Shown: one piece after another, positions 5,180 to 43,338 of the stretch | Numbering within the stretch: the first letter of the stretch is position 1 | How the letters are laid out: every line of letters starts with the position of its first letter | Source of the DNA: Bacteroidales bacterium | Lineage (GTDB): Bacteria > Bacteroidota > Bacteroidia > Bacteroidales > GCA-2748055 | Assembly: GCA_021740585.1 (NCBI GenBank) | Contig: JAIOZM010000028.1 | Coordinates: 1-46,097 of the forward strand | Reading direction: 5' to 3' | DNA: 46,097 nucleotides | Translations under genes and position numbers: made by a program | The notes under the pieces: generated by a model | What the model saw: the letters and a program-made list of their open reading frames with translations, nothing else | Told to the model about the DNA's origin: nothing | Database searches by the model: none

Positions 5180-6085
5180 TTAATCCACAATTTCAACTTC
5201 CACATAAATTGGTTTATGATCGGAAGGATACACTCCCTCTACATTATAATCAACTTCTTCATAATGGAGGACTTTTACCGATCCTTTGTACAAAATCCAG
5301 TCAATATCATTGTGGTCTTTTGAAGTATCGAGCATCAGACCGGTGGTTCCGGTCACCGCATCCCCCGTAAGTTCCTTATATGGCGGGCTACCGGGTTTGC
5401 AATTGAAGTCACCCATCAAAAAAACAGGTCTCTCATCCGTCCATTCTCCGAAGCGATCAAGCTCAGCGATGCGTTCACTGATTAATTTCGAAGCATTATA
5501 TCTGGCCAAGCCCTGACTACTTCCGTTAAAGTAATGAGTATTGAAGAGATAAAACTCCTGCGTATTTTCCCAGTGGCCGCGATAATCTTCAGGGTAGGGA
5601 CTTTTTTCATCTTTTCCTGTACTGTTTATTATTGCCAATCTGACCCAGGTAACCATCCGTGGATTCACATCAGGACCGCTTCCGATGATCTCAGGAGTCT
5701 TGGATAATTGAAAGCTCTGCAATTCACGCAAACGAAATTTATCCTTCCTGATGAAGATTGCCATATGCTCGTCATCGTCGCCTCCCTTCCGTCCTTCTCC
5801 CACAACAATATATTCAGGAAGGTGATCGGCCAGATAGTCGATTTGCTCTTTAAGCCCTTCCTGTGTGCCAATAATATCCGGATCGTATTTGCGAATCAGA
5901 TCAACCTGCATTTCCCTCCTTATTTCCCATGATGGTTGGTAGGTTGGACTCGCAAATTTGAGATTGTATGTCATCAATTTTAATTGTATTCCATCGCCTT
6001 TATCATTATAAGCTTGCCCATGCAAAAAAGGAATAAGGACCATTATTATGGTCATCGTACAAAATGATTTATAGATGTACTTCAT
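5180..6085 (-). CDS. Secreted endonuclease/exonuclease/phosphatase-family protein
   Basis: This 301-residue EEP (DNase I/sphingomyelinase-like) fold protein has an N-terminal signal peptide ending near HGQA. The family motifs are all in order: TYNLK (Asn41), QEG (Glu76), FNTHY, GDFN, DWIL and the C-terminal SDHKP (His290). These supply the Mg2+ and catalytic residues, so the enzyme is probably an active metal-dependent phosphodiesterase or phosphatase outside the cytoplasm. It is the first gene of the minus-strand group with two sulfatases, the next start lying 55 bp downstream. The context suggests removal of phosphate or phosphodiester groups from a glycan, or phosphate scavenging. A nuclease role cannot be excluded. 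Confidence 0.9.
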   Translation of the reverse strand: MKYIYKSFCTMTIIMVLIPFLHGQAYNDKGDGIQLKLMTYNLKFASPTYQPSWEIRREMQVDLIRKYDPDIIGTQEGLKEQIDYLADHLPEYIVVGEGRKGGDDDEHMAIFIRKDKFRLRELQSFQLSKTPEIIGSGPDVNPRMVTWVRLAIINSTGKDEKSPYPEDYRGHWENTQEFYLFNTHYFNGSSQGLARYNASKLISERIAELDRFGEWTDERPVFLMGDFNCKPGSPPYKELTGDAVTGTTGLMLDTSKDHNDIDWILYKGSVKVLHYEEVDYNVEGVYPSDHKPIYVEVEIVD

Positions 6086-6572
6086 AAAAATATAATACTA
6101 TTGGCTCATTATTTATTAATAATCTGTATTAATTCAAGTCCTTATAATGAAAAAATATATTGTTAAAAGACCCGATAACAGATATGTTTGGCATGCATTG
6201 AAAGTATCCGTTGAGAAGTAAATATATGATTTTCAGTTAAAATTTTTCTTAATAAATGATTAATTGAGAGGTGATATTTTTATTAGTTACAATCTACCTC
6301 ACTTTTTGATTAAAAAATATGTTTAATATATAATTCCTTATAAAAAATAAACTCTTGTACGCCTAAAATATATTTATCTGATTAAAAGTATTTTGGCTGC
6401 TTATCCTCCTGATTTTTATTGAAAATATCGGTCTATAATAAATAATAGCTCAATTCTAATATTCATATTAAGTATTTGTTAAGATAAAATTCATTCTGCA
6501 AACCTATATTGACCTTAGATAATGTATTAATTATCGTATCAGGGTTCACACCAAAGTTAAATGAATTGTTAA
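6086..6572. other. AT-rich intergenic region, no gene seen
   Basis: About 490 bp lie between the divergently transcribed phosphatase-fold gene and the transposase remnant. All frames are broken by frequent stops. I see no structured RNA, no clear promoter motif and no convincing protein remnant here. Confidence 0.6.
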
Positions 6573-14190: not shown

Positions 14191-15447
14191 TTATCCTGTA
14201 ATTAGTTGCATTACGCCCTTGATACCCATTATAGAGGTGAAAATGGAGAAGATTAGAACAGCTATTAAGAATATATTAGCACCCAGACCGTTTTTATGTT
14301 CTCCCATCAGATCCTTTCTATTCGTAAGATACAAAATGCTGGCAACGGTTACCGGAAGAATAATAGAGTTAAAAGCCTGTGAGATGATCATCACAAAAAC
14401 AGGTCGTGCATCAAAAATGGGAACCACCAGTCCAAGTAAGGAGATGACCAATACCATGATCCGGTATTTTGCCAGAGTCATTTTGCGTTCGGTCTGGTTA
14501 TAGTCGCATAACAACCAGGGCAGCATCAAAACATTTGGAAACTGGGAAGACACTCCTGCTGCAATAATCCCAACGGCAAAGACAGCAGTGGCAAATTTTC
14601 CTGCAAGGGGTTCGAGCAGGGTAATCATCTGGGAAGCTTCTGTCATGCCAAGGCCCTCGGCAAAGAGAGTGCCTGCTGCTGCTGCCATTATTGCTGCACT
14701 TATAATGAACATAAGCGAGACAGAAATGATGGCGTCATTACGCTGTTTTTTGAGATCTACGATGGTCCATCCGGCTTCCTTCACTAAAGTGGTTCTGATA
14801 ATAAACAAGCCTGAAAAAACGGTGGTTCCAACCATGGAAGCGATTACAAGGAATGGTCCATTTCCCTGATCAGCCGGTACCTCGGGCAGATTAGGAATCA
14901 TTCCTTTCAATATATCGATGGGAGGGGGCATCATTATAAAAAAGTTAAGCAGAAAGGATGCAGCCATGATAGCCACAATAACTGCAAGTGCTCTTTGAAA
15001 GAACTGAGTACTTCCATCCCAGAAAATATAGTAAACCAGAGCTATAAAGAAGCTGGCGAAGTATACTGGATGAATGCCTCCCTCAATTACGGTTTTTGAC
15101 CATTCAAAACAGATGTCAGCCACTATACCCATTACGCCTATCACACTTCCGGAAACTCCGGCGGTTAAGGCGACAATAAAGAAAATACCCACAGCAGGAT
15201 GAATGTGCTTGCGAAATGCCTGCAATGCTGTTTCTCCGGTTTTTAAGGTATACTTTCCATATAGATTGATCAGGAAGTAGGTGGTAAAGCATGAAGCCAC
15301 GATTGTCCATAGAAGTGACATGCCATAAGTAGCTCCGGCTTTTGCCATTGCTGTCACACTACCTGTTCCAATATTGAAGCCGAGCAGGAATATTCCCGGG
15401 AGGATTAGTGCCAGTGCTTTGGCGAATTTTTGACGAGCTTGTGTCAT
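14191..15447 (-). CDS. Nramp-fold transporter lacking metal-binding motifs
   Basis: This 418-residue, about 11-helix membrane protein is recognisably of the Nramp (SLC11) family by its first helices and YGMSLLW segment. The helix-1 metal site that is DPGN in true Nramp transporters reads GTGS (27-30). In helix 6 the VMPHN block is replaced by VFSGL, so the metal-binding Met and the His are gone. It sits between hexose mutarotase and mannose-6-phosphate isomerase, 2 bp from the latter, in a PUL with no other inner-membrane sugar transporter in view. A function in monosaccharide or other non-metal uptake is an inference from context. Automated pipelines would name it a divalent metal transporter. 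Confidence 0.8.
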   Translation of the reverse strand: MTQARQKFAKALALILPGIFLLGFNIGTGSVTAMAKAGATYGMSLLWTIVASCFTTYFLINLYGKYTLKTGETALQAFRKHIHPAVGIFFIVALTAGVSGSVIGVMGIVADICFEWSKTVIEGGIHPVYFASFFIALVYYIFWDGSTQFFQRALAVIVAIMAASFLLNFFIMMPPPIDILKGMIPNLPEVPADQGNGPFLVIASMVGTTVFSGLFIIRTTLVKEAGWTIVDLKKQRNDAIISVSLMFIISAAIMAAAAGTLFAEGLGMTEASQMITLLEPLAGKFATAVFAVGIIAAGVSSQFPNVLMLPWLLCDYNQTERKMTLAKYRIMVLVISLLGLVVPIFDARPVFVMIISQAFNSIILPVTVASILYLTNRKDLMGEHKNGLGANIFLIAVLIFSIFTSIMGIKGVMQLITG

Positions 15448-31963: not shown

Positions 31964-33799
31964 TTACCAGCCCGGATTTTGATACATATCCTTGTATATA
32001 AATGTCTCATCCTGAGGCAATGGCATCCAATAGTGGTTGGGTTTAACAAATACGCGGGTTTGCACACTCACCCTTTGAAAACTTGTGTGATCCACATCAA
32101 AACTCAAATCCAACAAATCTTTCGACAATGTATGAGCCGTGTACCAGCGTCTTGTATCGAACCAATAATTTGACTCAAAGCAAAGTTCCACAGCTCGTTC
32201 ATTTTGCACAAGTTCTCGGAAATTTTCGTATCCGGTGGCAGCAGCAGTTATCGAAGGCATACCTGCTCTGGTTCGTACCCGATTTACAGCATCCACTGCG
32301 GTGATGCCACCTGGCGCGGAACCCCCTGGTCCATAGGCTTCATTTACTGCTTCTGCATAAATAAGGTATACTTCAGCCAGACGCATTTGAGGTGTTGAAA
32401 AATTGCAACCGTCGTACTTTCCATCAGCTTCATTAATTCCTAATGGCCAATATTTATGTACAATATAAGAGGTTGGACAATTAGAACGATCTCTTTTTGT
32501 TCTTCCTCCGTCGTAAAGATGTAGTTCGGTTATTGGAGCAATTCCTCCCATATCCCGATCGACATAAATCGACTTTCTGAACCTCGGATCACGATCGTCC
32601 CAGCGACGTAAGTTATCATTATCGTACTCCTCCTTATATCGTGTACCGTCTGCCATTTCAAATAAGTCCACATAGTTTTGGGTCACTCCTTCATTAAAGC
32701 CGGAAGTTTGACCCTGGCCTCCAAAAATAGTTACATCGGGTACAAAAGCGCGGGCAAGTCTTTTTCTAAAGGCATAATTGCCAATAATTGCATTGCTACT
32801 TGTAAAAATATCATCATTGTATGATCTGGGCTTATAAAAAATAATCTCTTCTGTGTATGGAGCTGATCCATCATCTCTCTGGAACATAGTTAAGTAGTCA
32901 GCCCATGGTGTCAGCCCATATACATTGCCGCCTTCACTATAACTCATTTCTAAAACCTTCCATGCTAAATCTGCTGCCTGAGCCATTAATTCAACATCTA
33001 CTTCCGGGCCTTTACCGGAATAATCTGACATTAATGGACTAGCACCATACAATAGTACTTTTGAAGCTAATGCCAATGCAGCTCCTTTGGTTGCTCTTCC
33101 CCAGTTTGTTGCTAGTCTAAGGCGACCCGGACCGGTCTCATCCCAATCAGTCGGCAATAATGCGGCCGCGGCTTCAAAATCTTCTGCTATTTTCAATGCA
33201 TCGGCTTGCCATCCCTCCCTATCTTTGTATTCAATATACCTCTTCTGTCTGAACTCATCGGTAGAAGCACCCGTTAACACTTCGTCGATATAAGGCATGG
33301 GCCCAAAAGAGCGTATAACTTCCCAATGATAATATGCTCTAAAGAAGAGTGCCTGACCTTTTATAAGCTCTTTTTCCTCCTGACTGGCATCGGTTAGAAA
33401 CTGGAGGTTTTGAAGTGCAATATTACATATACGAATTCCCGGCCAGGCACTATTCCAAACGCCATTTCCTTCACGATTATTAAATGGTGAATAATCGGTT
33501 CCTCCCTGCACCAGAAAGCGATAATCTCCAGCTATAGCTTTTGTTGTTGCATGCCTTTCCCAAACATATAAACATTCCCCTCCCCAATCTAAAGTAAGCC
33601 CATTAAAATCCCTGTTATAGTCTATAACATCATCGTAAAGGGGATCAATAAAACCCTGGAAATCGTTATAAGTAGAAAAAACATCCTTCTCGGAAGCACC
33701 TGCTTCAGGGCTTCTTTCAAGGTAATCTTCGCAACCTGAACATGCAATAAATGCAATGATTGCTAATAGACTAAAATATTTTTGCTTATTCATTTTCAT
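31964..33799 (-). CDS. SusD-like glycan-binding lipoprotein, first pair
   Basis: The 611-residue SusD/RagB family lipoprotein has candidate lipidation at Cys20 or Cys23 (FIACSGCEDYLE). The characteristic KGQALFFRAYYHWEVIRSFG, MRLAEVYLIYAEAVNE and NERAVELCFESNYWFDTRRW segments are present. It begins 14 bp after the first SusC gene and is its lid partner at the cell surface. Confidence 0.95.
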   Translation of the reverse strand: MKMNKQKYFSLLAIIAFIACSGCEDYLERSPEAGASEKDVFSTYNDFQGFIDPLYDDVIDYNRDFNGLTLDWGGECLYVWERHATTKAIAGDYRFLVQGGTDYSPFNNREGNGVWNSAWPGIRICNIALQNLQFLTDASQEEKELIKGQALFFRAYYHWEVIRSFGPMPYIDEVLTGASTDEFRQKRYIEYKDREGWQADALKIAEDFEAAAALLPTDWDETGPGRLRLATNWGRATKGAALALASKVLLYGASPLMSDYSGKGPEVDVELMAQAADLAWKVLEMSYSEGGNVYGLTPWADYLTMFQRDDGSAPYTEEIIFYKPRSYNDDIFTSSNAIIGNYAFRKRLARAFVPDVTIFGGQGQTSGFNEGVTQNYVDLFEMADGTRYKEEYDNDNLRRWDDRDPRFRKSIYVDRDMGGIAPITELHLYDGGRTKRDRSNCPTSYIVHKYWPLGINEADGKYDGCNFSTPQMRLAEVYLIYAEAVNEAYGPGGSAPGGITAVDAVNRVRTRAGMPSITAAATGYENFRELVQNERAVELCFESNYWFDTRRWYTAHTLSKDLLDLSFDVDHTSFQRVSVQTRVFVKPNHYWMPLPQDETFIYKDMYQNPGW

Positions 33800-33813: not shown

Positions 33814-36800
33814 TTAAAAAGTAATTCTGGTTCCTAATTGAAAGCTGCCTCCTAATGGAAAGGTTTGTCTCTCAAACCTTCCAACTTCCTGATCCTGTCT
33901 CTGTTTCGACCAAAATAAAAGATTGGATCCGTTTATAAAAAACCTCCAGCCGGCGACGTTCATCTTTTGGGTTGCCTTTTGACTCAGGCTATAGGCAATT
34001 TCTGCATTTTTCAATCTTGTGTATGCACCATCCATATAACTACCATTACCCTGATATTGACCAAATGTGTTTTTTGACCAATCATACCTTAACTGATGGT
34101 AAGTGGCCTGATCCAAGACTCCCAATTCAGGTGAGTAGGCTTCATTAAGTCTTTCAAGGTAAACTAAAGAAGACTCGTTTATAAGATCATAAAGGCCCTC
34201 ATTTCTGGTAATGTTAAATACTCCATAAAAGAAAACAAATGCTTCAAGTCCTTTATATTTTGCCCCTAAACGGAAAGAATAGGTGTTTTGAGGCCTCTGA
34301 GGATAACCATAAGGGGTACCGTCATTATTGTCAATTATTCCATCAGCATTATAATCGAGATGGCGGAAATCGCCAGGGAGTGTATTGCGTAAATAGGCAT
34401 CATCATAATTCAATACTCCTGTATAAAGATCATCCCAATTTTGAATCACACCAGTATTGTTTATTGGTCTAGGTTGACCAATAGCATAACCAACGTCTTT
34501 TCTGTAATCCGGTAATAATTCCGGTTCTTCCCTTTTCAGGACTTCATCTGTGACATGGGTATATGATATTCCTCCGAATAGATGTACTCCACTTTCAAAT
34601 TGCTTGGACAGTTTTACTTCAATTTCGTATCCTTGCGATTTGGTCTCACCTAGGTTTCCTGATGGGGGCTGTGTGGCACCATAATAAAAAGGAATTATCC
34701 TATCATCAGCCTCCATAAAAATATCGTATCTATGATCCCAGAAGTAATCCGCCGTAAAGGAGACAAGATTATTCAAAATTCCGGCTTCAATGGCAATGTT
34801 TTGCTTTTGTACTTCTTCCCAATGCAGATCCGGATTTGCGATTAAGCCCTCTCTTCTCCATGGATATATTGAATTTACTTCACCACTTGGACTTCCAAAT
34901 TCAGACGTGTGATCCAAAAGATTCCAATCGCTAATGTACTGCCATGGTGGGGGAGCTTCGTCAACACCAACTCTACCATTTGAATATCTCAGCTTCAAAG
35001 TATTCATAAAGGGTACATTGTTTTTAAAGAAGTCCATATTTGAGATCATTAATCCTGCAGCCATTGATGGAAAAAATCCGAATCGATAACTTTTGTTTGC
35101 GGTTCCATTCTCAACCTGTGTTTTCCCGGCAAATTTCTCTGATCCATTATAAGCTCCGTTGGCCTCAAACAAATATATTTTTTTATAATCGTAGGTAAAC
35201 CTTCCTACCCAATCTTCACGATAACGAGTGAAATCACTTCCTCTGGTTGTTTCCTGACGACTCATCAAAGCCAGGGCTCCCAAACTGTGATCTCCAAAGG
35301 TTCTGCCATAATCCAGCGAAAACTGATAATATATTTGCCTCCTGATATTGTCTTTATCACTTCCAGAAACATTCTCCGTACTTTGAGTAACAGCACTTTC
35401 ATAAAAATCAAAGTTTTGTTCGGGCCTATACGTATTTGGATAAATATATGTTGTGTAATCCTGAATGTCTGCATCAGGTCCTGCATCGAGGAAAGCAGGG
35501 TCAACATTTTTTGTAAGGACTTCATCGTCATTAATATCCGGACCGCTACTATAAAAACTATTGTCGTATGATAACTTTGCTCTAAATGACAAACCTTTTG
35601 TCAACATATCCAGATCCTGACTCAAAATAAAGTCATTGTTTAATTGTGAACGTTTATCTACATTCTGCCCTTTGAAATTCATCTCTACGAAAGGATGGGT
35701 GGTCATATAATTTCCCGAAGGAATTGCGGCACCGTATACCCCATCGTCATATTGAAAAATTGGATCATCTCCGGGTTTTTCAAAGAAACCTATATAAATA
35801 TCCTGAGATCCGGGGGGTTGTTTTTGCACTCCCAAATAACCTCCCAGCTGGACAGAAAATACTGTGGTATTTGTCAAATTAAAATCAAGGTTTGTTCTGA
35901 AATTAAATCTTTGATAATTAAAATCAGGTACATAGCCCTGTCCAACATCCTCGGAATTTGCCAGCGATCCCTCATACTGATATCCAATTGAAGTAAAATA
36001 TTTGACAAATTTTGTTCCTCCTGATGCATCCATATTAAATCTATGAGACTTGGCAAAGTCCTTAAGCATTCTATCTTGCCAGTCGTAATCCTGGTAAAAT
36101 TGCGGATATTGACCCGTTCTGTAATACTCCAGAATTTGATCAGGAACATAATTGCCCCACTTATTATTTACAGGTAGTTCATTTATAATTGCATAGTTTC
36201 TATTTGTAATTCCATCGTATGAATCAGCTATCTCAGGTAATCTTGAAAGAAAACCGAATGTTGATTCTGCCTCAAAAGAGAGCTGTGGCTTCCCTACTTT
36301 TCCCCTTTTAGTTGTTACCAAAATTACCCCGTTTCCACCTTTAACACCGAAAACTGCTGTTGCAGATGCATCTTTTAAAACTGAGATTTTGTCAATCTCG
36401 TTTGGGTTGACTTCGCTTAACTCCCGTTCAACGCCATCAACTAGAACAAGAGGCGATGAGCTATTCCACGTGTTCTGTGCACGGATTAATATTTCAGTAT
36501 TGAATTCACCCGGTTTTCCCGATCTTTGAAGAGTCACAACCCCGGGCAATAATCCTGATAAAGAATTAGTAAGATTGGAACTACCAACCGTAGATCGCTT
36601 TATATCATCACCACTGGTTTGCACAATAGCTCCAACAACACTTTCCTTTTTTTGACTTCCGTAACCCACTACCACTACGTCTTCTAGTTCTAAAACATCG
36701 GGTTGCAGAACAATTGACAGGTAAGTCTGATTTCCCACACTAACTGTTTGGGAAGTAAACCCAACATAGGTAAATGTTAATTGATCATCCGGATTAGCAT

Positions 36801-36993
36801 TAATAGCAAAATTACCTTTTACATCTGTTATTGCACCGGTAGTAGTTCCTGCAATAATTACACTTACTCCAATTAAAGGTTGTTTTTCATCATCCAAAAC
36901 CAATCCCTGAATCGTTTGCCTTCTTTCCTGAGCTAAAATATTCTGGCTAAAGAGAAATATCAGCAACGGCAGTATCAAATAAATTCTTTTCAT
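33814..36993 (-). CDS. SusC-like TonB-dependent transporter, first pair
   Basis: This outer-membrane transporter has about 1059 residues with the start at 36993 (MKRIYLILPLLIFLFSQ...AQE). The upstream in-frame ATG at 37026 would add eleven residues that lack leader character. It has a CarbopepD_reg-like domain, the VVVGYGSQKKESVVGA segment, a plug with LVLVDGVERELSEVNP and ISVLKDASATAVFG, and a 22-strand barrel. It is the first gene of the PUL transcript. The promoter region carries the heptamer array at 37056-37136, and a divergent membrane regulator starts 651 bp away. Confidence 0.95.
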   Translation of the reverse strand: MKRIYLILPLLIFLFSQNILAQERRQTIQGLVLDDEKQPLIGVSVIIAGTTTGAITDVKGNFAINANPDDQLTFTYVGFTSQTVSVGNQTYLSIVLQPDVLELEDVVVVGYGSQKKESVVGAIVQTSGDDIKRSTVGSSNLTNSLSGLLPGVVTLQRSGKPGEFNTEILIRAQNTWNSSSPLVLVDGVERELSEVNPNEIDKISVLKDASATAVFGVKGGNGVILVTTKRGKVGKPQLSFEAESTFGFLSRLPEIADSYDGITNRNYAIINELPVNNKWGNYVPDQILEYYRTGQYPQFYQDYDWQDRMLKDFAKSHRFNMDASGGTKFVKYFTSIGYQYEGSLANSEDVGQGYVPDFNYQRFNFRTNLDFNLTNTTVFSVQLGGYLGVQKQPPGSQDIYIGFFEKPGDDPIFQYDDGVYGAAIPSGNYMTTHPFVEMNFKGQNVDKRSQLNNDFILSQDLDMLTKGLSFRAKLSYDNSFYSSGPDINDDEVLTKNVDPAFLDAGPDADIQDYTTYIYPNTYRPEQNFDFYESAVTQSTENVSGSDKDNIRRQIYYQFSLDYGRTFGDHSLGALALMSRQETTRGSDFTRYREDWVGRFTYDYKKIYLFEANGAYNGSEKFAGKTQVENGTANKSYRFGFFPSMAAGLMISNMDFFKNNVPFMNTLKLRYSNGRVGVDEAPPPWQYISDWNLLDHTSEFGSPSGEVNSIYPWRREGLIANPDLHWEEVQKQNIAIEAGILNNLVSFTADYFWDHRYDIFMEADDRIIPFYYGATQPPSGNLGETKSQGYEIEVKLSKQFESGVHLFGGISYTHVTDEVLKREEPELLPDYRKDVGYAIGQPRPINNTGVIQNWDDLYTGVLNYDDAYLRNTLPGDFRHLDYNADGIIDNNDGTPYGYPQRPQNTYSFRLGAKYKGLEAFVFFYGVFNITRNEGLYDLINESSLVYLERLNEAYSPELGVLDQATYHQLRYDWSKNTFGQYQGNGSYMDGAYTRLKNAEIAYSLSQKATQKMNVAGWRFFINGSNLLFWSKQRQDQEVGRFERQTFPLGGSFQLGTRITF

Positions 36994-37055
36994 TATAGAA
37001 ATTTTAAATTGTATCTGAATTGTCAATCATAGTAATTTTAAAAAACGAATTTCTA

Positions 37056-37136
37056 GATTAACTGCAAATTAATGGCAGACAGATAAACAAAAGATTAACA
37101 AAAAGATTAACAGTATAAAAAAATGGCTTGATAAAC
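37056..37136 (-). promoter_or_regulatory. PUL promoter with phased GTTAATC heptamers (candidate SARP-type operator)
   Basis: On the transcribed (minus) sense, heptamers GTTAATC (37111-37105), GTTAATC (37099-37093) and GTTTATC (37088-37082) are spaced by 5 and 4 bases, an 11-12 bp period. A further GTTTATC lies upstream (37136-37130) and another GTTAATC downstream (37062-37056). Nine bases after the central three comes TTAATTTG (37072-37065), one mismatch from the Bacteroidota -7 consensus TAnnTTTG, followed by 71 bases to the SusC ATG. No TTTG lies at the usual -33 spacing, which fits activator dependence. The layout matches that described for SARP activators. Confidence 0.65.
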
Positions 37137-37644: not shown

Positions 37645-40263
37645 ATGATAAGTTGTAAAGAAAACTGTAATTTATTCAATATCAGAGGCATATCCTCTTC
37701 AATATGTTTATATGTTTTATTCTTTACAGGATTAGTATTCTTGAATCCCGCAGTTATTCATGCCCAAGAATATGGCTTAGAGTTTGTCGGGCAACCGGAA
37801 TTAAAGGATAATCGTACAAAACTTGATCTTAATCCGGAAGACTTCTATTCTTTTAACGATGAATTCGAATTAAGATTTAGCATAAAGCTTCGTCCTACTA
37901 TACCGGAATCTTTTGGTTATATAGCCAGAATCATTGATAAAGAAGATAGGAATATTGACATTATTTATAATGGCCCAGGCTCGCACAGCCTGCAAGTTGT
38001 TTGCGGTCAGGATATTACAAACATTTCCGTGTCCGCTGACTTCCTGAGAATCTATGATGGCTGGGTGGAAATAGGACTAAAAATAGATTTAAGAAAGCAG
38101 TCACTCAGTTTTTATACTGCAGACACCTCCTTAATTTATTCAAACATTGACTTTGACAGAAAGGTTAAAATTTTATTTGGAGCTAATAATTATGCTCCTT
38201 CTAAGACTACTGATGTTCCTTCAATGAATATCAGGGACATCAAAATCTTCCAAAAAGACAAATGCTTGCAACATTTTCCTCTTGATGAAAAGTCGGGTGA
38301 TATCGCGAATGATGTTGTTTCCAGGAAGGAAGCCTTAGTTCAAAATCCAATCTGGATTAAACCCAAATATTATGACTGGGTCAAATCTTACAATACAAAA
38401 ATACATGGATTTGCTGCGATAGGTTATGATATGAAGAATGATAAAGTTTATATGGTCGGTGATGAGAAAATGACAATTTTTTCGGTTGTTGAAAATAATA
38501 CCACAAGTCTGACTTACAAAACTACATTTTCAGGTCTTCAGAGAGGAAGCCAGATTTTTTTTGATACAATAGAAAATACACTCTTCTGTTATAGCCTTAA
38601 GTTTAAAACAGTTTACTATTTCAATTTATCTTCACAAAACTGGGAATTAATTTCTACGGGGACTCGCTCATCAACTGTATTATGGTTTCACAATAAATAT
38701 TATTCCAGTCTGGATAGTTCACTTTATACTTTTGGAGGCTATGGACAACACAAGTATTCTAATTTGATTCAGAAGTATGACTTTCGTAATCAACAATGGG
38801 ATACACTTCAGACCGGTGGTGAAATTTTTCATCCTCGTATGCATGCAGCTATTGGAAGTTTTGAGGATACGATATATATACTAGGTGGATTTGGAAGTAA
38901 TACAGGTGATCAGATTCAGAAACCTCACCACTATAAAGATTTACTTGCTTATTCTATAAAGGATAAAATATTTTTAGATAAATATGAATTTCAATCTCCT
39001 CTGGAGGATATTGATTTTGCTCATTCGATGGTGATTAATAAGAAGGACAGGTCATATTATGTTCTTGCGTCAACAATATTTGAATATGAAACATATTTGC
39101 AACTGTTAAGAGGAAATTTAGCGGATACTGAACTTGAAATGCTGGGCAATAAAATTCCTTATCTATTTCATAATGAGAATTCTTATTCTGATTTATATTT
39201 TTCAAATAGCAGTCAAAAGCTTATTGCGGCTACATTTTTAGCCGATACTGAAAAGGATTCAACTGAAATTTCTATCTATTCTATACATTTCCCCCCACAC
39301 ATTACAGAAATTGAAAAAAGTGAACCAAGTCATACCTCATTGAAAATATTATTGGGATTTATACTTCTATTAATCGCAGCATCCCTTTTTAACCTACTGA
39401 TAAGGTACTTCCGGAAAAGAAAAAAACCTAAGGGTAGGGTTGAAACAGGTGCCATAGTTGATAATTCAGAATCTAATCTGACGCTAAAACAAGTTAGTAT
39501 TAGGGATGAAGGTGGGCCAAATTTTGCCAATTCCTTTATATTTTTTGGGGGATTTCAATTTATCAATCGGAATGGAGAAGATATAACTAAAAAGTTCACC
39601 CGACTTTTAAAAGAACTTTTTCTCGTTATATTTCTTTACTCCGTAAAAAATAAAGGGATATCCGTACAAAACCTTACCGAATTTTTATGGTTTTCCATGG
39701 ATACAAAAAGCGCCAAAAACAATCGTGCCGTTAATATTGCAAAATTAAAAAATCTCTTATCTGAAATTGATGGCTGCGATTTAAGCCGAAAAACAGGTTA
39801 CTGGCGAATTGTATTTAATGATTCCATTGTTTATAACGATTATTGGACCTGTCTTAAAACGATTACTCAAAAGAATTCACTATCTAAAGAAGAACTTCTG
39901 CAAGTTCTAAAAATAATAAAAACCGGACCCTTACTTGGAAGCGCAAATTATGAATGGCTTGATGAAATTAAATCTGAATGTTCAAATCTGATTATTGATA
40001 AACTATTAAATTATTGTGCTCAAGACATGGAAGAAAATGATTTTGAGCTAATGATTAAGTTGGCCGACGCTATTTTGATTTTTGATATTTTGCATGAAGA
40101 GGCAATTGGTTTAAAATGCAGGGCATTGACAGCAATTGGAAAACATAATATTGCAAAAGATACCTTCAAAAGATTCACCAAGGAATACGAAATTTTATAT
40201 AATGAGCCCTATGAAAAATCATTTCTGGATGTAATCAATCAAAAAGTGGAACCTGGTCAATAA
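37645..40263 (+). CDS. Transmembrane one-component regulator: LamG/Kelch-like sensor fused to SARP-like DNA-binding and BTAD domains
   Basis: The protein has 872 residues. A leader or anchor (about 18-40) is followed by a LamG/concanavalin-like domain (about 43-235) and a Kelch-type beta-propeller (about 250-545) with repeated YTFGGYG and YILGGFG motifs. A single transmembrane helix (about 565-587) is followed by a basic stop-transfer (RYFRKRKKPKGR). The inside part has a winged-helix domain (about 630-730) starting FGGFQFINRNGEDIT, with LKELFLVIFLYS, TEFLWF and NNRAVNIAKLKNLL. A helical, TPR/BTAD-like domain (about 735-865) ends ALTAIGKHNIAKDTFKRF. It lacks histidine kinase, SusR or anti-sigma features. 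Transcribed divergently from the PUL, it is the obvious candidate regulator. Confidence 0.85.
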   Translation: MISCKENCNLFNIRGISSSICLYVLFFTGLVFLNPAVIHAQEYGLEFVGQPELKDNRTKLDLNPEDFYSFNDEFELRFSIKLRPTIPESFGYIARIIDKEDRNIDIIYNGPGSHSLQVVCGQDITNISVSADFLRIYDGWVEIGLKIDLRKQSLSFYTADTSLIYSNIDFDRKVKILFGANNYAPSKTTDVPSMNIRDIKIFQKDKCLQHFPLDEKSGDIANDVVSRKEALVQNPIWIKPKYYDWVKSYNTKIHGFAAIGYDMKNDKVYMVGDEKMTIFSVVENNTTSLTYKTTFSGLQRGSQIFFDTIENTLFCYSLKFKTVYYFNLSSQNWELISTGTRSSTVLWFHNKYYSSLDSSLYTFGGYGQHKYSNLIQKYDFRNQQWDTLQTGGEIFHPRMHAAIGSFEDTIYILGGFGSNTGDQIQKPHHYKDLLAYSIKDKIFLDKYEFQSPLEDIDFAHSMVINKKDRSYYVLASTIFEYETYLQLLRGNLADTELEMLGNKIPYLFHNENSYSDLYFSNSSQKLIAATFLADTEKDSTEISIYSIHFPPHITEIEKSEPSHTSLKILLGFILLLIAASLFNLLIRYFRKRKKPKGRVETGAIVDNSESNLTLKQVSIRDEGGPNFANSFIFFGGFQFINRNGEDITKKFTRLLKELFLVIFLYSVKNKGISVQNLTEFLWFSMDTKSAKNNRAVNIAKLKNLLSEIDGCDLSRKTGYWRIVFNDSIVYNDYWTCLKTITQKNSLSKEELLQVLKIIKTGPLLGSANYEWLDEIKSECSNLIIDKLLNYCAQDMEENDFELMIKLADAILIFDILHEEAIGLKCRALTAIGKHNIAKDTFKRFTKEYEILYNEPYEKSFLDVINQKVEPGQ

Positions 40264-43282: not shown

Positions 43283-43303
43283 TATTAATCCTTTCTATTC
43301 GTC

Positions 43304-43338
43304 ATTAATAAATTGTTAATCCAACTTCAGTAAGTTTA
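43304..43338 (+). promoter_or_regulatory. Heptamer-type promoter before the Gfo/Idh gene
   Basis: ATTAATA (43304-43310), AATT and GTTAATC (43315-43321) have an 11-bp period. Exactly nine bases later comes TAAGTTTA (43331-43338), one mismatch from TAnnTTTG. The distance to the ATG at 43410 is 71 bases, identical to that at the SusC promoter. An additional ATTAATC is at 43284-43290. Confidence 0.58.

Follow-up and report, generated by a model that had tools for sequence, protein, structure and literature searches.

A predicted SARP-type operator of three phased TTAAT boxes between a susC gene and a transmembrane kelch regulator gene in a Bacteroidales polysaccharide utilization locus

Polysaccharide utilization loci (PULs) set the range of polysaccharides that Bacteroidota digest, and only some PUL regulators have an operator that is known or predicted. 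We describe here a predicted operator in a 46,097-nucleotide stretch of a Bacteroidales genome (assembly GCA_021740585.1, contig JAIOZM010000028.1), the whole of which we call the window. A susC-type gene for a TonB-dependent transporter (33814..37026, minus strand; the open reading frame (ORF) begins at TTG 37026 and the likely start is ATG 36993) lies divergent, across a 618-bp gap, from a gene for an 872-residue regulator (37645..40263, plus strand), and in this gap three boxes phased by about one helical turn stand just upstream of a predicted -7 promoter element. We consider it likely that these boxes are the operator of the neighboring transmembrane regulator and that its cytoplasmic domain, predicted to have the fold of the Streptomyces antibiotic regulatory proteins (SARPs), activates the susC promoter in the SARP manner. 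This reading rests on the boxes themselves, on an 11-bp period and a 15-bp distance that recur at about half of the related loci, on the rarity of the layout before control SusC genes, and on the match of the modeled fold to EmbR and AfsR.

Read along the minus strand, the array consists of GTTAATC (box 1, 37105..37111), GTTAATC (box 2, 37093..37099), and GTTTATC (box 3, 37082..37088), with starts 12 and 11 bp apart, followed after 9 bp by the predicted -7 element TTAATTTG (37065..37072), which departs by a single mismatch from the TAnnTTTG consensus, described for Flavobacterium psychrophilum as an element at -12 to -5 (PMC9723704). Anchored on this octamer, susC transcription is predicted to start near 37060 and the boxes to occupy -51 to -45, -39 to -33, and -28 to -22, box 1 being shifted by 1 bp from the family norm (-50 to -44) by the 12-bp first spacing. 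A first-pass annotation had reported five heptamers in one orientation within 81 bp, three of them exact GTTAATC, the central three being phased and ending 9 bp before TTAATTTG; all are present on the minus strand as described, their starts spaced 25, 12, 11, and 26 bp, with phasing only in the central three. The extent it gave the operator holds for these three and not for the other two, which are out of phase: the upstream one (GTTTATC, 37130..37136, 25 bp upstream of box 1) probably lies outside the conserved operator, and the downstream one (GTTAATC, 37056..37062), which spans the predicted start site, is probably due to chance. Neither is seen in the orthologous locus L011, and a five-box operator was rejected on this ground. 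With 18 occurrences vs 16.4 expected, the heptamer as such is not over-represented in the window; its clustering is unusual, and among 40,000 first-order Markov simulations of the 618-bp intergenic region none contained five boxes within 81 bp and none contained three phased boxes. The paired pattern GTTWATC N4-5 GTTWATC has 2 matches in the 4,232,295-bp draft assembly, both inside the susC array, but 2 matches also when read backwards, so that pairs alone are weak evidence and the weight rests on the triple array and its conservation.

The regulator, encoded on the plus strand, comprises a predicted periplasmic beta-sandwich (residues 45-233, 37777..38343), for which a LamG-like fold is a guess made without a profile match, a kelch beta-propeller (residues 246-548, 38380..39288), a predicted transmembrane helix (residues 564-590, 39334..39414), and a predicted cytoplasmic SARP-fold domain (residues 629-865, 39529..40239), in the model of which an OmpR-type winged helix is followed by BTAD-like helices, the order seen in the SARP family. 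The C-terminal domain is modeled with a pLDDT of 94, and its significant structural matches are solely to SARPs (EmbR and AfsR), with Mycobacterium EmbR as the top Foldseek match (E 1.3e-5) and sequence identities of about 12-13% in the structural alignments. The earlier suggestion that the adjacent regulator is SARP-like is thus supported by its predicted fold. The families matched in the regulator are kelch/propeller only, an NCBIfam search matched no family, and profile matches among 49 regulator relatives are sparse (Trans_reg_C in 6/49, best 8.2e-5; BTAD in 2/49, best 7.9e-4). Five columns of the domain are invariant, three of them (N68, N69, and V72) inside helix 63-81, which by its position in the model would be the recognition helix; these invariant residues are in keeping with a single box core across the family. 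The SARP domain is described as usually N-terminal in the protein (PMC10936776); here it is C-terminal, behind the predicted transmembrane helix, and we therefore do not class the regulator as a standard SARP.

The first-pass annotation had also proposed a motif search at related loci, where we find the boxes again, with their spacing to the -7 element, though not at every locus. A scan of genome contigs with the single regulator protein returned nothing, and an alignment-based scan returned 24 loci. The full set holds 55 non-duplicate regulator loci (L082 and L084 were removed before counting as duplicates of L011 and L010, and no other pair has long common DNA), 53 of which yielded 293 upstream regions (122,114 bp), as defined by a simple ORF caller rather than by annotation. 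At L011, where the regulator is 55% identical and the SusC orthologous (1765 bits), GTTAATC tttt ATTAACT tttt ATTTATC is followed after 10 bp by TAAATTTA, and at three loci with regulators 42-43% identical (L012, L016, and L029) three boxes with a period of exactly 11 bp stand 9 bp before TACATTTG. Upstream of susC these three loci have a sub-clade variant, with common ATTAATAGA and ATTTAGG boxes and with box 3 consistently unlike box 2.

Three TTAAT boxes together with TWnnTTTR comprise 15 scored positions; a search for sites matching at least 13 of these, over periods of 7-16 and distances of 9-21 (130 cells), gave 60 counts, 17 of which fall in the cell of period 11 and distance 15 (next cell, 6) and 39 in the period-11 row; the same sequences reversed gave 17 counts in total and 0 in that cell. 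By a flexible score, fixed after inspection of the loci, 43 of the 293 regions reach at least 17 and 36 at least 17.5, against 5 and 0 when reversed, and in 49/293 regions p is at its floor of 0.005 when the region is compared with Markov-1 simulations of itself. Counted by locus, 25/53 have a site of at least 17 (reversed, 4) and 21 have one of at least 17.5 (reversed, 0). Locus L024, from the cultured relative Ochrovirga pacifica S85, contains three predicted operators. With the octamer set at -12 to -5, the family boxes fall at -50 to -44, -39 to -33, and -28 to -22, and the conserved unit, as predicted from these sites, is three boxes with the core [AG]TTAATN; the heptamer GTTAATC, named in the first-pass annotation, is present in the window but is not the family core. 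A candidate fourth box lies 9 bp (12/43 sites) or 22 bp (9/43 sites) upstream of box 1, and at L092 (8860-8885) a three-box operator on one strand overlaps one on the other, as though a single set of boxes worked in both directions. The paralogous loci of the window's own genome stay below threshold upstream of the divergent gene (L007, 16.0; L008, 15.0; L009, 16.0); inspection by eye finds four ATTA boxes at L008, spaced 11, 11, and 11 and then 15 to TAATTTTA, and ATTA boxes at 11, 11, and 12 and then 15 to TATATTTG at L009, both suggestive only.

The layout is concentrated at the regulator loci. SusC promoters at these loci with an upstream gap of at least 60 bp score at least 17 in 11/16 cases, compared with 1/35 controls filtered in the same way (1/11 from the window's own genome and 0/24 from 12 genomes without a regulator match; 2 other-genome control loci had no long ORF in this recount). 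An initial control without the gap filter gave 1/29 and 0/28, respectively, with 18/30 own-genome and 4/30 other-genome loci being operon-internal or tight. The own-genome controls were not selected for distance from paralogous regulators, and Fisher values treat related loci as independent. Other SusC genes of the regulator loci reach 17 in 6/9 cases (reversed, 0) and their remaining genes in 23/203 (reversed, 1). Autoregulation was considered and rejected, the regulator's own promoter reaching 17 in 0/49 cases and its reversed sequence in 2/49. The own-genome control that does carry the layout is on contig C63 (L208, 6978-7022), where a SusC gene with 751 bits to the window SusC is preceded by GTTAATC-11-ATTAAAG-11-ATTAATC, 9 bp, and TATATTTA, in the same gene order as in the window (SusC-SusD-SusC-SusD-DUF5627); this 18.8-kb contig has no regulator gene, and its SusC operon is plausibly a second, trans target of the window regulator. 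A strict version of the pattern has 29 matches in 23 of the 393 genomes of the order vs 10 matches when read backwards, which makes it a weak genome-wide test, and it misses the window operator because of the 12-bp spacing and the TTTA third box. In the 24 genomes with the regulator, 4/7 strict matches lie within 10 kb of it.

Several observations weigh against our proposal. The window regulator has no Trans_reg_C or BTAD match in a profile search even at E<=1, and sequence and sequence-profile searches of the PDB with it matched no chain. No site of at least 17 is found at 28/53 loci, some of which are truncated and some of which have sub-threshold sites. At the locus of the closest homologue (L010, 58%), no boxes were seen before the divergent gene, a gap read by eye and left unscored because predicted ORFs overlap; one site lies 7.3 kb away (in L084). 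The 28 also include all four Dyadobacter loci (L023, L028, L032, and L033), where no operator of at least 17 occurs within the fetched stretch. The Dyadobacter loci have similar downstream gene order; in them susC runs off the end, and its promoter lies outside the fetched stretch. The sole test made after the score was fixed, on 8 further loci with mostly more distant regulators, found sites in 2/8, or in 1/7 without L206, which was known beforehand (3/54 regions of at least 17; reversed, 0/54); L200, with a good full-length regulator match, is among those without a site. Genes divergent from the regulator reach this score in 14/32 cases, but their reversed sequences also do so in 2/32. Regulator genomes show only a mild excess of the strict pattern (5/24 at E<=1e-60 vs 18/369 others, p 0.009), and a TTTTG at about -32 to -28 of the susC promoter could act as a -33 element, a TTTG at -33 being described in Bacteroides fragilis and reported as not identifiable in Flavobacterium johnsoniae (PMC7366714).

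OmpR/PhoB-type regulators also bind one-turn direct repeats, and the boxes could belong to another protein of that type, the kelch protein acting elsewhere. We find this improbable, as the layout follows the kelch-SARP loci, with its 11/16 SusC promoters against 1/35 controls, and the scan of the 23 main window ORFs turned up no further transcription factor family. Regions with a site are more A+T-rich than those without (GC 0.288 vs 0.343), as would be expected if the repeats served highly expressed genes as an A+T-rich promoter or UP-like element and had no regulator of their own; however, control SusC promoters of the same genome are equally A+T-rich (GC 0.274) and have the layout in 1/11 cases, reversal at identical composition takes the counts from 36 to 0 at 17.5 and from 17 to 0 in the 11/15 cell, and the peak is specific in period and in distance, so we give this explanation even less credence. 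Chance in an A+T-rich region was rejected, being contradicted by the Markov and reversed controls. The regulator could instead be a repressor that sits on the boxes until released by glycan, which the outer box over the predicted start site would suit, but that box is not seen in L011, the conserved boxes occupy the activator positions of AfsR, upstream of the -7 element, and SARPs are described as activators (PMC10936776); we consider repression very improbable, more so than either of the foregoing explanations.

If the regulator is instead a SARP-style activator, as we favor, its periplasmic beta-sandwich and kelch propeller would sense a mannan or N-glycan fragment, and the transmembrane helix would carry the signal across. 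In response, two or three SARP domains would line up along one face of the DNA, from about -50 to -22 and over the place of the -33 element, holding the primary sigma factor and RNA polymerase at the -7 element, and the susC/D operon and two further window promoters would be switched on together.

The gene content of the window points to the substrate. Downstream of susC, and next in the putative operon, lies a susD-type lipoprotein gene (31964..33799, minus strand); the PUL has two SusC/SusD pairs, GH92, GH38, GH115, and GH99-like enzymes, and sulfatases, and it also encodes an aldose epimerase and a cupin-type mannose-6-phosphate isomerase, so that mannan or N-glycan is its likely substrate. 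An Nramp-family metal transporter gene (14191-15447, minus strand) also lies within the glycan locus, flanked by the aldose epimerase and mannose-6-phosphate isomerase genes. A second predicted operator (43285..43338, plus strand) has TTAAT at 43285, 43305, and 43316 (spacings 20 and 11) and the -7 element TAAGTTTA at 43331-43338, and precedes an oxidoreductase/3-keto-disaccharide hydrolase gene pair (43410 and 44785); the box scored as its first, which lies 11 bp above 43305, is a weak one. A third predicted operator (6219..6263, minus strand), TTAATCATTTA TTAAGAAAAAT TTTAACTGAAAATCA TATATTTA, lies before a phosphatase-family gene (5180-6085) and has a mirrored match on the plus strand at 6237-6282.

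Among the matches listed in a search of the open-access literature (title and start of abstract, with subscription journals and preprints mostly outside the search), none described a SARP-type or kelch regulator or operator of Bacteroidota PULs. A fixed motif, with three TTAAT at 11 bp and a distance of 15 bp from the core of box 3 to TWnnTTTR, would allow the regulons of this regulator class to be recognized from sequence and predicts start sites to a base or two. The module also offers a test of SARP-type activation with the sigma factor of Bacteroidota, which is unusual and has a poorly defined -33 element.

Among PUL regulators, hybrid two-component systems (HTCS) and SusR are alike to the window system as membrane-linked sensors beside susC/D with predicted direct-repeat operators. 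HTCS are described as having AraC-like DNA-binding domains and operators with repeats on average 21 bp apart, three of them (HTCS_Man) handling alpha-mannan, and the SusR domain is said to resemble none known, its operators having two sites whose centers are separated by 67 or 77 bp (PMC3878776). We rejected both types for the window, where the regulator has kelch/propeller families only and no histidine kinase, receiver, or AraC-type match, the period is 11 rather than 21 bp, and three boxes at 11 bp, rather than two distant sites, make up the conserved unit. We propose, as probable though with less assurance than the operator assignment itself, that membrane-spanning kelch-SARP one-component activators are a third class of Bacteroidota PUL regulator, next to HTCS and SusR, with SARP-type sigma adaptation and a TTAAT x3 11-bp operator fused to a TAnnTTTG promoter. 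One geometry would then serve Actinomycetota and Bacteroidota despite different primary sigma promoters, boxes, and roles.

Streptomyces SARPs, of which ActII-ORF4 and DnrI are further members, are alike to this system in their two-part fold (winged helix plus BTAD, predicted here) and in 11-bp direct repeats, the last of which ends 8-9 bp before the -10/-7 element (the -7 being predicted here). They differ in their targets (antibiotic clusters, here glycan uptake), in the promoter (here the Bacteroidota TAnnTTTG), and in domain order, a periplasmic kelch sensor and a transmembrane helix here preceding the SARP domain. Mycobacterium EmbR has the winged helix and BTAD that are predicted here; it is a soluble protein with a C-terminal FHA domain. 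Transmembrane one-component activators of the ToxR/TcpP/CadC type have the order reversed relative to the window regulator, with an N-terminal DNA-binding domain, a C-terminal sensor, and no known BTAD. At SARP promoters the repeats are 11 or 22 bp apart and the last is 8 bp from the -10 element (PMC10936776), compared with a family peak at 11 bp here (12 and 11 bp in the window), a 3' heptamer 9 bp from the predicted -7 octamer, and a distance peak confined to one cell. In the main PimR operator three heptamers are separated by 4-nt spacers (PMC5930380), as in the window array, with CGGCAAG-type boxes in place of [AG]TTAAT, and the AfsR box, with two 11-bp repeats centered at -29.5 and the upstream repeat at -40 to -30 (PMC10936776), overlays boxes 2 and 3 if the octamer is set at -12 to -5. 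On these predicted positions the Bacteroidota geometry is that of SARPs to within a base or two, and we judge the system to be a SARP variant rather than a new kind, distinguished by its membrane sensor and by the novelty of the box and of the phylum in which the operator occurs.
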